Part shown: piece by piece, positions 15,030 through 60,046 of the stretch
Layout of the letters: the number at the start of each line of letters is the position of its first letter
Position numbering within the stretch: the first letter of the stretch is position 1
Source: Algoriphagus aquimarinus
GTDB taxonomy: Bacteria; Bacteroidota; Bacteroidia; Cytophagales; Cyclobacteriaceae
Assembly: GCF_007997215.1 (NCBI RefSeq)
Contig: NZ_VORW01000014.1
Location: 1-64,000, forward strand
DNA: 64,000 nt
Direction: 5' to 3'
The notes under the pieces: generated by a model
What the model was told of the DNA's origin: nothing
What the model saw: the letters and a program-made list of their open reading frames with translations, nothing else
Databases searched by the model: none
Position numbers and translations under genes: made by a program

Positions 15030-16526
15030 TTATCTCTCAGCTCTGTTGTTTGTGCCATCAACTCGAATTCTATTTTCTCTGTTGGCAATATCCCAAATTG
15101 TATGGAAGATTAATCTTGCTCTCTTTTCCATTAGCGGGAATTCGATTTTGTCCACCGTGTCAGTTACCTGGTGATAATCGTCATGAACTCCATTGAAGAA
15201 GAATGCTACGGGGATATTATGCTTTGCAAAGTTATAATGATCAGATCTGTAGTAGAATCTGTTAGGATCATCTTCAGCATCGTATCTGTAATCCAAGATC
15301 AAGTCAGAGTAAGTGATGTTGTTATACTCCAAGATTTTTTTCAAATCTGTAGAGAGCATTTCAGAACCAATCACATAGACGAAATCTTTGTTTTCAGCAT
15401 CTTGATATTCGTAGTCAATTCTACCTACCATGTCAATGTTGAAATCTACTACTGTGTTTTCCAATGGGAAGATTGGGTGCTCAGAGTAGTATTCAGATCC
15501 CAAAAGGCCTTTCTCTTCACCAGTTACATTTAGGAAAAGGATAGATCTTCTTGGTTTCACTCCATCTTTTGCTGCCAAAGCAAATGCTTCAGCAATTTCA
15601 GTAACAGATACTGTTCCTGATCCATCATCATCAGCGCCGTTGAATACTTCGCCAGTGCTGCTTACACCTACGTGATCGTAGTGAGATGAAATTACTACCA
15701 ATTCGTCTTTCTTATCAGTTCCTTCGAGGTAGCCCATTACGTTTGAGCTTTCTACCTCTTCGATTTTCTTCTCGATTTGGTAAGTAGCTTTTTGGGACTT
15801 GATAGACTCAGGGTTTGTTTTTGCAGCTTCTTTCAAGACTTCCACAGGAGTATTGAACAATTCAGCCATTTTATCAGAGCTAACCATGAATACTGGCTTT
15901 TGCTCAATTTCCTTTGCGAAACCTACTCTGCCTTTTCCAGCTAAGCTTTTGTAACGATTAGCAATACGGTCAAAATTTGCCTGACCTTCCATGCTCACGA
16001 TTACGATACCTGCAGCTCCAGCATCCATTACTTTAGTCTGAAGGTCGTTAGATCTTACGCCAACAGCCCAGATTCCAACCAATTTACCTTTTACTTCGAC
16101 TTTAGCTAGGTTTTCGTCAGTAACTAATCCTAGGAAAACTAGGTCTGTTTTAGACGCTTTCTTCATATCTCCATCGCCGGAGAAAACAAAATCCTCATTG
16201 TTGACAAGTTTGTTTTTTCCAACTTTCAAAGAAACCTCTCCAAAAGAAGAGCTTACCAACTCAACAGCTTGCAGGTAGCTTCCAGCTACTGGGCCTGTCA
16301 AACCAATTTTTTTGTAAAAATCCGCCAAGTAATTAGCAGCTACTTTTTGCTCTTCAGAACCTGTGTCTCTACCCTTCATTTCGTCAGAAGCGAGGTAAGT
16401 AAGACGCTCTTTTAGGTCTCCTGCAGTGATTGTGTTGGCATATTTCACCTGAGCAGGTTGCTGCGCCAATGACGGTAGAGCAAGGCCCAAAGCCATTGCT
16501 CCCGTTAATAACAGACTTTTATTCAT
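15030..16526 (-). CDS. Secreted M28-family metallopeptidase with PA domain
   Basis: A 498-residue zinc aminopeptidase. The signal peptide covers about residues 1-21. A protease-associated insert lies at about 100-225. The M28 core begins near 258, with metal and catalytic residues His282/Asp284 (SSHYDHVG), Asp299-Asp300 (GADDDGSG), Glu337-Glu338 (TGEEKG), Asp365 (NIDMVGR) and a C-terminal His in DDYHQVTDT. All five expected positions are filled, so it should be active, probably freeing amino acids from peptides outside the cytoplasm. Its 5' leader (16527-16620) is one of three near-identical leaders in the window. It is a single gene with its own terminator. Confidence 0.92.
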   Translation of the reverse strand: MNKSLLLTGAMALGLALPSLAQQPAQVKYANTITAGDLKERLTYLASDEMKGRDTGSEEQKVAANYLADFYKKIGLTGPVAGSYLQAVELVSSSFGEVSLKVGKNKLVNNEDFVFSGDGDMKKASKTDLVFLGLVTDENLAKVEVKGKLVGIWAVGVRSNDLQTKVMDAGAAGIVIVSMEGQANFDRIANRYKSLAGKGRVGFAKEIEQKPVFMVSSDKMAELFNTPVEVLKEAAKTNPESIKSQKATYQIEKKIEEVESSNVMGYLEGTDKKDELVVISSHYDHVGVSSTGEVFNGADDDGSGTVSVTEIAEAFALAAKDGVKPRRSILFLNVTGEEKGLLGSEYYSEHPIFPLENTVVDFNIDMVGRIDYEYQDAENKDFVYVIGSEMLSTDLKKILEYNNITYSDLILDYRYDAEDDPNRFYYRSDHYNFAKHNIPVAFFFNGVHDDYHQVTDTVDKIEFPLMEKRARLIFHTIWDIANRENRIRVDGTNNRAER

Positions 16527-16620
16527 GTGTTTTTAATTTGGATTTTTAAAGGTCCCATGGAATCTCGCATGTTTTATGATCGCTTTAGTTTTTGACGATT
16601 AGGTCATGCTCGATTTCATT
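16527..16620 (-). promoter_or_regulatory. Conserved 5' leader, copy A (M28 peptidase)
   Basis: Read on the minus strand, this 94-nt stretch opens ATGAAATCGAGCATGACC, then has GATCATAAAACATGCGAGAT followed by TCCATGGGACC, and ends CCAAATTAAAAACAC directly before the ATG at 16526. The same blocks precede the genes starting at 47596 and 59937. AATC-GA-GCATG in the first block can pair with CATGC-GA-GATT in the second, leaving tandem G.A mismatches. The remaining 16621-16893 of this 367-nt gap is AT-rich and holds the presumed gcvP promoter; TACCTTCG at 16828-16835 is one base from the -7 consensus. Confidence 0.6.
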
Positions 16621-46702: not shown

Positions 46703-47596
46703 TTACCCTTTCTGAAGCAATATCAGCCAAGCTCGGTCGACATCATCTTCATCTAGTGCTTCCTTAGCCAAAAGATGCAAATGGTCCGCCAGTGAGTCTA
46801 GATCATACTGGAAGCGAACTCTCATTTCTTGGATCTCTGCGCCTTGCCCAAAATCAGCAACCTCAGCCGGACTTGGAAGAGCCTCTACATTGCCCAGTCT
46901 CCCAAGATTGTTTCCACTTAAAATGGTGCTATTTCTAACTTCGGCTGGCATTTGGTCAATACCAATACCCAGGGTTCGCAAGGGCTTTGGAATTTGAAAT
47001 AGAGATGCTCCACTGGCACGGCTATACCAGTTCCCGCCCAATCTTGCCACAGCATCTAGTTTCCTAGGATCAATCACGCCCATCTCATCCAAAACAGCTT
47101 CATTCACATGCGCTACCAAAACCTCGCATATCACCAAATTCCCAGCTCCTCCACTATCTCCAAGCGACTTCACTTCATTCACTTTGCACTCAAAGGCAAC
47201 ATGTGCTTCTTTGATGCGCGGAGGCTTAACTTCATTTGATTTTACTTGAGTAAATCCTGCTTTATCAAATTCATTCACACCTTTTTTATACTCCGTACTC
47301 GCTAGCGACATTTGCTCCACCATTCCAAAATGAACGACATGGATCACCACTTCGGGTACTTCTAACACATTTTCCAAAGTATGCTTAGTAGTATTATCAC
47401 GCACGCGTCTGGATGGAGAAAAGATCAATATCGCAGGATTCGTACTGAACAAATTGAAAAAGCTAAACGGACTCAGGTTCACATTTCCTTCTCGATCAAT
47501 AGTACTAGCAAAAGCAATCGGTCGAGGAGCTACTGCTCCTTGGAGCAAGCCATGAAATTCCTGAGGTGTTAGGTCTTTGGGATAAAAGGTTTTCAT
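46703..47596 (-). CDS. Flavin reductase-like FMN-binding protein
   Basis: A 297-residue protein with a split-barrel flavin-binding domain in its first two thirds: VAPRPIAFASTIDREGNVNL followed by SPFSFFNLFSTNPAILIFSP is the usual FMN/NAD(P)H site. A C-terminal helical extension of about 90 residues (AEIQEMRVRF ... DRAWLILLQKG) is not part of the core. Partners such as two-component monooxygenases are not nearby, so the reaction is uncertain. Its 5' leader is copy C of the conserved leader. Single gene. Confidence 0.85.
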   Translation of the reverse strand: MKTFYPKDLTPQEFHGLLQGAVAPRPIAFASTIDREGNVNLSPFSFFNLFSTNPAILIFSPSRRVRDNTTKHTLENVLEVPEVVIHVVHFGMVEQMSLASTEYKKGVNEFDKAGFTQVKSNEVKPPRIKEAHVAFECKVNEVKSLGDSGGAGNLVICEVLVAHVNEAVLDEMGVIDPRKLDAVARLGGNWYSRASGASLFQIPKPLRTLGIGIDQMPAEVRNSTILSGNNLGRLGNVEALPSPAEVADFGQGAEIQEMRVRFQYDLDSLADHLHLLAKEALDEDDVDRAWLILLQKG

Positions 47597-47712
47597 GTGT
47601 TTATAATTTGATTTTCTAAGGACACGTTGCCTGTCCCGATTTTTCTTCGGGAGAATCTCGCATGTATTATGATCATCGAAATGTTTGACATTTTTGTCAT
47701 GCTTAATTTCAT
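47597..47712 (-). promoter_or_regulatory. Conserved 5' leader, copy C (flavin reductase)
   Basis: On the minus strand: ATGAAATTAAGCATGACAAA, later GATGATCATAATACATGCGA then GATTC, and finally AAATCAAATTATAAACAC directly before ATG 47596. Compared with copy A it has an extra hairpin, CCCGAAGAAAAATCGGG, just after GATTC. The stem partner in the first block reads AATT-AA-GCATG, where one C-G pair becomes T.G and the pairing to CATGC-GA-GATT is kept in part. The divergent nuclease gene starts 64 nt farther on. Confidence 0.58.
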
Positions 47713-59361: not shown

Positions 59362-59937
59362 TTAGAACCTATATCCAAGATTGAATCCTCCATTCAATTC
59401 TATTCCTGTAAAGCGGTTTGCAACATCATCACTGAAGTTTCTGCCAATGCTGGCAAATGGGCCAAATGCAAAGTTTTTAGAAAGCTCCCACTTATATCCT
59501 ACTCCTGCACCTAAGATGAAAGCAGTCATATCTGTAGTCTGAATCCCTCCACCATCATTTGGCTCTTCAAAATCACCAAATCGTATCTTAGCCAATGGGA
59601 ATAAGAAGAAACGACCACTTCCATTGTCGCCAAAGTAAAAGTTCATGGAAGCCTGTAAAGAGTTCGTCTTGTATTTTTTTCCACTGTTTTCATTATTAAA
59701 TCCAAAGCGGTCGTTAATAAAACCCTTGAACTCTATCGAATGATCATCACTCAAATAGCGCTCATATCCTGCTTCTAGTGAGCCGAACCAAATGAGTGTC
59801 ATGAAATTGACATGTATTTCATTTGAAAAACCACCTCTATTCGGAGTAGAACCACCACTGCTCGAAATCACTTCTTGTGCATATCCTGAAACTACTAACG
59901 CCAGAATAAGAGTAAGGGTAAAGATTGATTTTTTCAT
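59362..59937 (-). CDS. Outer-membrane beta-barrel protein
   Basis: A 191-residue protein with a signal peptide (about 1-20, GYAQ) and alternating strands with aromatic girdles, such as EIHVNFMTLIWFGSLEAGYE and ILGAGVGYKWELSKNFAFGP; the end NGGFNLGYRF has the C-terminal Phe typical of outer-membrane proteins. DUF3575-like by appearance. ATG 59937 is chosen over a TTG 21 nt upstream that lies inside the conserved leader (copy B). Function unknown. Confidence 0.8.
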   Translation of the reverse strand: MKKSIFTLTLILALVVSGYAQEVISSSGGSTPNRGGFSNEIHVNFMTLIWFGSLEAGYERYLSDDHSIEFKGFINDRFGFNNENSGKKYKTNSLQASMNFYFGDNGSGRFFLFPLAKIRFGDFEEPNDGGGIQTTDMTAFILGAGVGYKWELSKNFAFGPFASIGRNFSDDVANRFTGIELNGGFNLGYRF

Positions 59938-60046
59938 CTGTTTATAATTGTTTTTCAAAGGTCATATGGAATCTCGCATGGCTGAATCATCTCAGAGTCT
60001 GAGGTTTTTTGTCATGCCTGTCTGCCTCAGGCAGGCTCGATTTCAT
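59938..60046 (-). promoter_or_regulatory. Conserved 5' leader, copy B (outer-membrane barrel)
   Basis: On the minus strand: ATGAAATCGAGC, then an 18-nt palindromic insert (CTGCCTGAGGCAGACAGG), CATGACAAAAAA, later CATGCGAGATTCCATATGAC, and AAACAATTATAAACAG directly before ATG 59937. Apart from the insert it follows copies A and C closely, and the AATC-GA-GC / GC-ATGC-GA-GATT pairing is preserved around the insert. Confidence 0.6.

Follow-up and report, generated by a model that had tools for sequence, protein, structure and literature searches.

Short folded elements that very probably insert into ATGAA start codons precede three unrelated genes in an Algoriphagus genome

Three unrelated genes in one bacterial genome share a leader that runs into the start codon of each, which raises the question of whether such a leader is a regulatory RNA or a piece of DNA that has moved there. 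The genes lie in a window of 64,000 nt from Algoriphagus aquimarinus, the whole stretch of DNA analysed here, and a first-pass annotation had offered both answers. It had placed the leaders correctly: all three are present, reach the start codon and lie on the minus strand, and the genes behind them are indeed unrelated, encoding an M28 peptidase (PF04389), a flavin reductase-like protein (PF01613) and a 191-aa open reading frame (ORF) with no Pfam match. A covariance model places copy A at 16521-16619 (E = 2.9e-15), copy B at 47591-47712 (E = 2.5e-10) and copy C at 59932-60046 (E = 9.5e-12), all on the minus strand, and these are its only matches in the window; of the three, copy A alone contributed to the model, which is built from 35 sequences. 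With blastn, a 201-nt query containing copy A gave 41 matches including itself, namely copy C at 2.2e-8, copy B at 3.2e-6 and 38 further places in the genome. Because of these E values from two methods, the likeness of the leaders cannot be ascribed to chance.

The earlier count of three copies was too low, as the model finds 106 matches at E ≤ 0.01 in the genome as a whole (G000). It was built from an alignment (A2) of 35 of 48 places, which remained after four false or doubtful ones had been dropped from a motif collection of 52; the 13 omitted, copies B and C among them, were left out mostly for inserts, and 150 of 2475 first-look candidates were scored. The unit boundary also needed correction: the match does extend to the start codon, as had been described, but does not stop there, since ATG and the next two bases are repeated as well. 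With this boundary, the features of the window are as follows.

16527..16619, minus strand: copy A, 93 nt of net inserted DNA, counted from the left ATGAA up to, but not including, the right ATGAA
16615..16619, minus strand: left ATGAA of copy A, the start-codon position at the empty site of relatives
16522..16526, minus strand: right ATGAA of copy A, the present start codon of the gene
16605..16615, minus strand: 5' strand of helix P1 in copy A, AATC-GA-GCATG
16561..16571, minus strand: 3' strand of P1 in copy A, CATGC-GA-GATT
16554..16559, minus strand: 5' strand of helix P3 in copy A, CATGGG (CATNTG in the family), which can pair with CACATG at 16524-16529 with one mismatch
16524..16529, minus strand: 3' strand of P3 in copy A, CACATG, with the start codon inside
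15030..16526, minus strand: M28 peptidase gene, its start codon occupied by copy A
47597..47712, minus strand: copy B, a net insertion of 116 nt at the start codon of the flavin reductase-like gene; site empty in G019 and G021
47712-47708 and 47596-47592, minus strand: left and right ATGAA of copy B
46703..47596, minus strand: flavin reductase-like gene downstream of copy B
59938..60046, minus strand: copy C, a net insertion of probably 109 nt, sized by analogy with other copies
60046-60042 and 59937-59933, minus strand: left and right ATGAA of copy C
59362..59937, minus strand: 191-aa ORF behind copy C, without a Pfam match

Copies B and C are longer by foldable hairpin inserts (47634-47652 and 60016-60034, minus strand), of the form TCCCGA...TCGGGA in copy B and CTGCCTGAGGCAGACAGGC, close to the 5' end of the element, in copy C. 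Many copies of the element carry inserts of the TCCCGA..TCGGGA and CTGCCT..AGGCAGACAGG types, always at one of two positions, as if other small palindromes had inserted into the element or these were interchangeable tips.

The origin of the leaders can be read from the same genes in other genomes. The M28 gene had a match in 38 of 40 genomes and was read at 30 loci; its start codon, where copy A sits, is occupied in G000 and G058 and empty in G017, G019, G021 and G061, where the same flank runs into ATGAAC or ATGAAT. No element was seen in the other loci read, several of which lack an ATGAA start. Empty alleles thus read ATGAAT or ATGAAC against ATGAA-ATCGAG...ATGAAT when occupied, and the duplication is therefore exactly ATGAA. 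For the flavin reductase gene (a match in 37 of 40 genus genomes, 30 loci read), the upstream flank of the window (...ttaaaattgaatcataatttcatcaa) runs straight into ATGAAAACC in G019 and G021, an empty site; besides the window, the gene is occupied in G031, G016, G014 (two units) and G059, some genomes have diverged stretches of uncertain class (e.g. G017, G009 and G025), and the other loci read are free of the element. The third gene is rpmJ. Having found infA in 65 of 71 genomes, we read 50 infA-rpmJ junctions (the 30 best loci and 20 fetched): in 31 rpmJ starts within 15 nt behind infA (...atcgatataaataaactgat joined to ATGAAAGT), and in 19 there is a gap of 63-96 nt. By eye, the 15 gaps of 92-96 nt are recognisable copies, some much diverged, and the four of 63-77 nt are remnants; G002 and G006, read via other loci, are also occupied before rpmJ. 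At three genes, then, empty and occupied alleles show insertion in the start codon with a 5-bp duplication of ATGAA or, equivalently, with one ATGAA brought in by the element.

Copy A is thus very probably a short, non-coding, non-autonomous mobile element that inserts into ATGAA, preferably ATGAAA, chiefly at start codons and in the sense of the gene, with ATGAA at both ends. The first-pass suggestion of a mobile repeat named the right class, given the three empty sites with duplication, the differing copy numbers of congeners and the unrelated downstream genes. Its alternative was a cis-regulatory RNA, a riboswitch or translational leader controlling a regulon. Such leaders are structured 5' regions that reach up to the start codon, as are those of ribosomal-protein genes, and the element is alike in structure; it differs in being mobile and in having no conserved gene association. 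A regulatory role would suit the conserved, covarying helices described below, the start codon within a helix and the retention of the rpmJ copy in small-genome members of the genus, but the genes downstream are unrelated, their orthologues in congeners mostly lack the element, and copy numbers differ widely. As a general explanation a dedicated regulatory RNA is therefore unsupported and contradicted by the empty sites, and we consider it very improbable indeed, though single copies may have been co-opted. Rfam searches returned only a tRNA at the gathering score in the window, and nothing at E ≤ 5 in eight loci.

The element is about 92 nt long net; it typically opens with ATGAAA and closes with ...CANATGAA, where the final ATG is also a gene's start codon, and the unit consensus is about ATGAAATCGAGCATGAC-NNAAN-GTCACACACTGGGATGATTATNNNNCATGCGAGATTCCATNTGNCCNTTAAAAAACAAATTATAAACANATGAA(A). 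Among the 106 matches, ATGAA stands at the beginning in 93 and at the end in 103. The base that follows is A in 92 of the 93 left ends, and A in 94, G in 5 and T in 4 of the 103 right ends, so the left sixth base belongs to the element and the right one to the gene. An A at this position is found at 90% of 93 occupied and 50% of 42 unoccupied ATGAA starts (p = 1e-6), the sole clear difference among 45 flank positions compared (two others gave p values of 0.02 and 0.04, uncorrected), and the preferred target is therefore ATGAAA. Units also occur in tandem with one ATGAA common to both (L040, L365, L366 and L368), the arrangement that insertion of the element into its own end would produce. A second subfamily opens with ATGAAATGCCCATG or ATGAAATACCCATG (L188 6838-7109, L469, L096, L099, L141); its P1 is fully Watson-Crick, without a GA/GA step, and in several places it stands in tandem with the main type.

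How strict is the choice of start codons? In G000, the last ATG of 91 of the 106 copies starts an ORF of at least 60 aa; of the other 15, one precedes a 50-aa ORF, four precede another unit, eight have no ORF of 45 aa and two have no ATGA. The complete genome G021 has 118 matches, and its 30 best-scoring copies divide into 24 at ORF starts, three before another unit and three others, one of which runs into a diverged unit. As a background, the window contains 262 ATGAA: 19 serve as start codons, 42 lie between genes away from starts, and within genes 115 are in sense and 86 in antisense, by simple longest-ORF gene calls and with the three copies counted within the first two classes. Start codons thus make up 19 of 61 non-coding ATGAA, as against 91 of 101 copies (binomial p = 4e-35; the four copies before another unit and the one before the 50-aa ORF excluded). 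The excess at start codons is strong, and it extends to positions directly behind an upstream gene. For the 86 copies that keep the left ATGAA intact and precede an ORF of 60 aa, we measured the distance back to the end of a same-strand ORF of at least 100 codons: 31 overlap that end or lie no more than 30 nt from it, 20 are 30-100 nt and 13 are 100-600 nt away, and 22 have no such ORF within 600 nt. In eight copies the stop codon of the upstream ORF is the TGA inside the left ATGAA, and the right ATGAA is the start codon of the next gene. Because so many copies adjoin the end of an upstream gene, a promoter is unlikely to be the recognised feature.

The preference is not absolute, and it is weaker in our named loci than in G000 and G021: of 108 matches in 80 loci, out of at least 116 stretches, 53 precede an ORF of 60 aa, 22 another unit and six the end of the sequence, leaving 27 others, some of them before a diverged unit. 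Copies lying equally within and after genes, which had been proposed as the mark of a transposable repeat, were not what we found; they are mostly, though not all, at start codons. Non-start sites can be hit: in G009, the 3' end of a Y1 transposase gene carries one copy (L345 1933-2030) in antisense orientation, and other REP-like repeats flank this gene.

Two explanations of this bias compete. One, possible but short of probable, is a class of mobile element with insertion machinery that recognises translation start sites themselves: a folded strand of about 92 nt, in which TTCCAT pairs with its own ends and with the target, would rebuild stop and start codons almost silently at any gene, including one directly behind another. 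The bias could instead arise from retention, with any ATGAA hit, copies elsewhere lost by deletion or selection, and those at start codons kept as the initiation site. This would rival targeting, not mobility, and we see it as a real possibility, if one short of probable. A copy, once inserted, is the start site and so cannot be lost without damage; with no clean loss, retention could mimic targeting. That non-start copies exist (10 of the 106 own copies, eight without a 45-aa ORF and two without ATGA, and the 27 of 108 in named loci), the antisense copy in G009 and the remnants that persist before rpmJ all agree with retention. It is harder to reconcile with the best-scoring, presumably youngest copies of G021, which are equally biased, or with the intergenic non-start ATGAA of the window, which outnumber start sites 42 to 19 and should tolerate insertion.

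The fold of the element is conserved in two helices, P1 and P3. The first-pass annotation had described the former as a helix with facing GA steps and had called for compensatory changes in it. The helix is real, the changes were found, and it covaries across subfamilies and families; the GA/GA step itself is absent from one subfamily and from G037. Coordinates confirm that AATC-GA-GC faces GC-GA-GATT in P1, and two of its pairs show double changes in A3, an alignment of 108 matches to the model, which favours the model. P1 has been rebuilt as AATGCCC/GGGCATT or AATACCC/GGGTATT in the subfamily and, by eye, as AACCCGC/GCGGGTT without GA steps in G037 and AAC-GA-GC/GC-GA-GTT in G079, both outside the family, and as AACC-GA-GC/GC-GA-GGTA in G314, from another genus of the family. 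With variants of both kinds, the GA/GA step is one solution among several. A helix P2 (TGAC/GTCA and variants) is paired in 85.6% of cells in A3 and has less support.

In P3, CATNTG pairs with CANATG, so that the start codon itself is in a helix. The variable bases are paired in 177 of 195 distinct copies, compared with 88 on average and at most 107 in 2000 shuffles that ignore relatedness, and in a cross-family alignment of 21 chosen sequences (A4) the pair is GC in nine, AU in six, CG in three, UA in two and unpaired in one. Close copies, with at most 10 differences, were tallied as pairs of copies, which are not independent events: 111 pairs are identical at both bases, 27 differ at both without loss of pairing, 12 have a one-sided change that stays paired through G-U, 28 have a one-sided change that breaks the pair, and 17 differ at both with one copy unpaired. 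Selection on P3 is therefore real but not strict. That close copies show as many breaking as switching changes, and that some old rpmJ copies have lost P3, counts against the mobile-element reading as we have framed it. Folding energies are only mildly better than those of shuffled sequences (z of 0.1 to -2.0 in six copies).

Between P1 and P3 lies TTCCAT, which is complementary to ATGAA save for one extra C. It can pair with either ATG, never with both together: on the left the pairing would lengthen P1 beyond an A.C mismatch, which is the fold predicted for copy A, and on the right it is that of P3. Because it could pair in turn with ATGAA at either end, TTCCAT may be a guide by which the two ends of the element and its target are set, an idea that draws on the complementarity of near-invariant sequences, too constant at the left end for covariation to bear on it. 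The folded single strand, whether DNA or RNA, would be recognised by an enzyme supplied in trans.

A difficulty for a mobile element is that neither a mobilising enzyme nor an autonomous copy was found, and among congeners the presence of Y1_Tnp and RVT_1 does not follow copy number. A version of the mobile-element reading that names the enzyme invokes a Y1 transposase of the IS200/IS605 or RAYT type acting on single-stranded DNA, with the element as a REP- or PATE-like passenger. The element is short, bears hairpins and has no terminal inverted repeats, its left 20 nt being, by eye, unlike the reverse complement of its right end; the pentamer of its left flank recurs at the right end, it contains an internal complement, and 37 of 40 genomes have a Y1_Tnp match. 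Derivatives of IS200/IS605 go by the name of PATEs, and the element, like them, lacks terminal inverted repeats; its fixed ATGAA at the left flank and its TTCCAT, complementary save for one C, may correspond to their fixed target and their internal complement of the cleavage site. It departs from them in its identical boundary pentamers and its start-codon bias, and no Y1 parent with such ends was found. To REP/RAYT systems (REPtrons) it is similar in being short, high-copy, folded, non-coding, non-autonomous and placed between genes, and dissimilar in its greater length (about 92 nt net), its position on start codons, its ATGAA at both ends and the lack, here, of a tie to Y1 genes; no GT[AG]G foot (GTAG or GTGG) is seen by eye in its consensus. 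REPs measure 21-65 nt according to PMC6006769, which also describes the pairing of guide and cleavage site in IS200/IS605 that the proposed role of TTCCAT recalls.

Other evidence speaks against a Y1 enzyme, and we think this version rather unlikely. No Y1_Tnp match at E ≤ 0.001 exists in G014, a genome with at least 71 copies; neither of the two Y1 genes in G000 is flanked by the element; and none of 31 Y1 loci read is enclosed by copies, L345 alone having both element-like ends, which are those of an ordinary copy. A left-end-like 11-12-mer without a right end occurs in L340, L341, L347, L351 and L362. Nor does orientation follow the replication fork beyond what genes do: in G021, 72 of 118 copies are co-oriented with the fork, against 157 of 226 sampled genes (p = 0.06), and with tandems collapsed 62 of 103 are (p = 0.04, in the direction of fewer). 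There is no replication strand bias beyond that of genes. A RAYT-like Y1 gene of G000 (L060 1330-2065; C8, around 77259) is flanked by a different hairpin, GCTGCTTCTCCAGAAGCAGC; its NHLH and YIHQNP match the motifs of subclass 2.6 in PMC6006769.

Copying through RNA, from mRNA leaders and by a reverse transcriptase, would explain the sense orientation at start codons and would agree with old rpmJ copies, in which hairpin loops that look RNA-like (UUCG, UCCG) were noted by eye. Four genomes with many element matches, though, have none to RVT_1, namely G004 (42 element matches), G023 (at least 71), G024 (63) and G034 (43), and we regard this route as improbable. A longer, autonomous version was sought among 302 distinct GAAATCGAGC places in 1.73 Mb, a sample biased to known copies: 25 have no expected partner within 160 nt, and these are, by eye, mostly diverged or hairpin-bearing copies and some coding sequence, and no transposase was seen within any of them. 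Plasmids, phages and viral contigs gave no match to the one query sequence or one exact pattern used for each.

What does insertion do to the gene? The proposal that the repeat supplies promoter and start region holds for its mobility, for the start codon and for the sequence just before it, but is not supported for the promoter. The -7 motif of Bacteroidota is TANNTTTG; 2 of the 106 copies contain it, and 12 have it in the preceding 100 nt. The native start region of the M28 gene in G021 has acctaactataaactg before the ATG, and the 3' end of the element is alike, with aattataaacac; gene expression would continue by way of this normal-looking, A-rich initiation region. In the four rpmJ remnants much of the middle is gone and the ATG-side end is kept, and P3 is not needed for rpmJ expression, because some old rpmJ copies have lost it. 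The occupied genes include what we take, by eye from their first residues, to be sucC-like and argG-like genes.

In part of the copies, a short frame opened by the old start codon closes at the new one or slightly ahead of it. Of 91 own copies, 24 have this frame ending at the ATGA overlap and 14 have it ending no more than 12 nt before the ATG; in 48 it stops early, and in five it runs through. A coding role for this frame of about 31 codons was considered, as it is open in 58 of 70 non-redundant 92-nt units, and rejected: of 115 single-base differences between codons only 24 are synonymous, and third positions have the lowest column entropy, which means that the peptide is not conserved. Openness in 92-nt units was equalled in 10 of 1000 column-shuffled and 31 of 300 Markov nulls, the latter not convincingly exceeded; the figures are 25 of 1000 and 24 of 300 for 91-nt units and 30 of 1000 and 66 of 300 for 89-nt units, 90- and 93-nt units show no excess, and the comparison across unit lengths is confounded with indel position.

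The family is commonest in Cyclobacteriaceae. Congeners have from 0 to at least 71 matches per genome, and 33 of 58 genomes, the own included, have one. In the order as a whole, 40 of 291 genomes have a match; 31 of these are among the 42 family members listed, and nine belong to other families. Counts per genome here are lower bounds, as fewer places were scored. Named hosts are Algoriphagus, Cyclobacterium, Lunatimonas, Lunatibacter, Pararhodonellum, Anditalea, Aquiflexum and Pleomorphovibrio, of which a taxonomy look-up places Algoriphagus and Pleomorphovibrio in Cyclobacteriaceae.

Whereas transposable elements commonly avoid genes or disrupt them, this one inserts at the start codon and gives the gene a replacement, so that about 90 genes here carry the same folded initiation module. 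Bacterial MITEs are also non-autonomous, with many copies and a target-site duplication; the element differs in having no terminal inverted repeats and in duplicating a fixed sequence, ATGAA, where theirs is random. Rickettsia palindromic elements are short repeats within reading frames whose genes stay expressed, and the element likewise inserts into genes, with expression probably kept, but at the initiation site. A literature search, at the level of titles and abstract openings, found no description of such an element, and as far as that search shows the start-codon site and the fixed ATGAA duplication are new. The targeting mechanism, very compact, is possibly new as well. The occupied and empty alleles form a natural series with and without the element for effects of start-codon structure on translation in Bacteroidota, and they warn that recurrent structured leaders are not necessarily riboswitches.

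In congeners, rpmJ is among the genes whose initiation region has been replaced. Members of the genus with small genomes (2.2-2.8 Mb) keep the copy between infA and rpmJ (L113, L115-L119, L379-L386 and L389); by eye, these copies have UUCG/UCCG-like loops and a rebuilt inner hairpin, and in these members the copy may have been co-opted.
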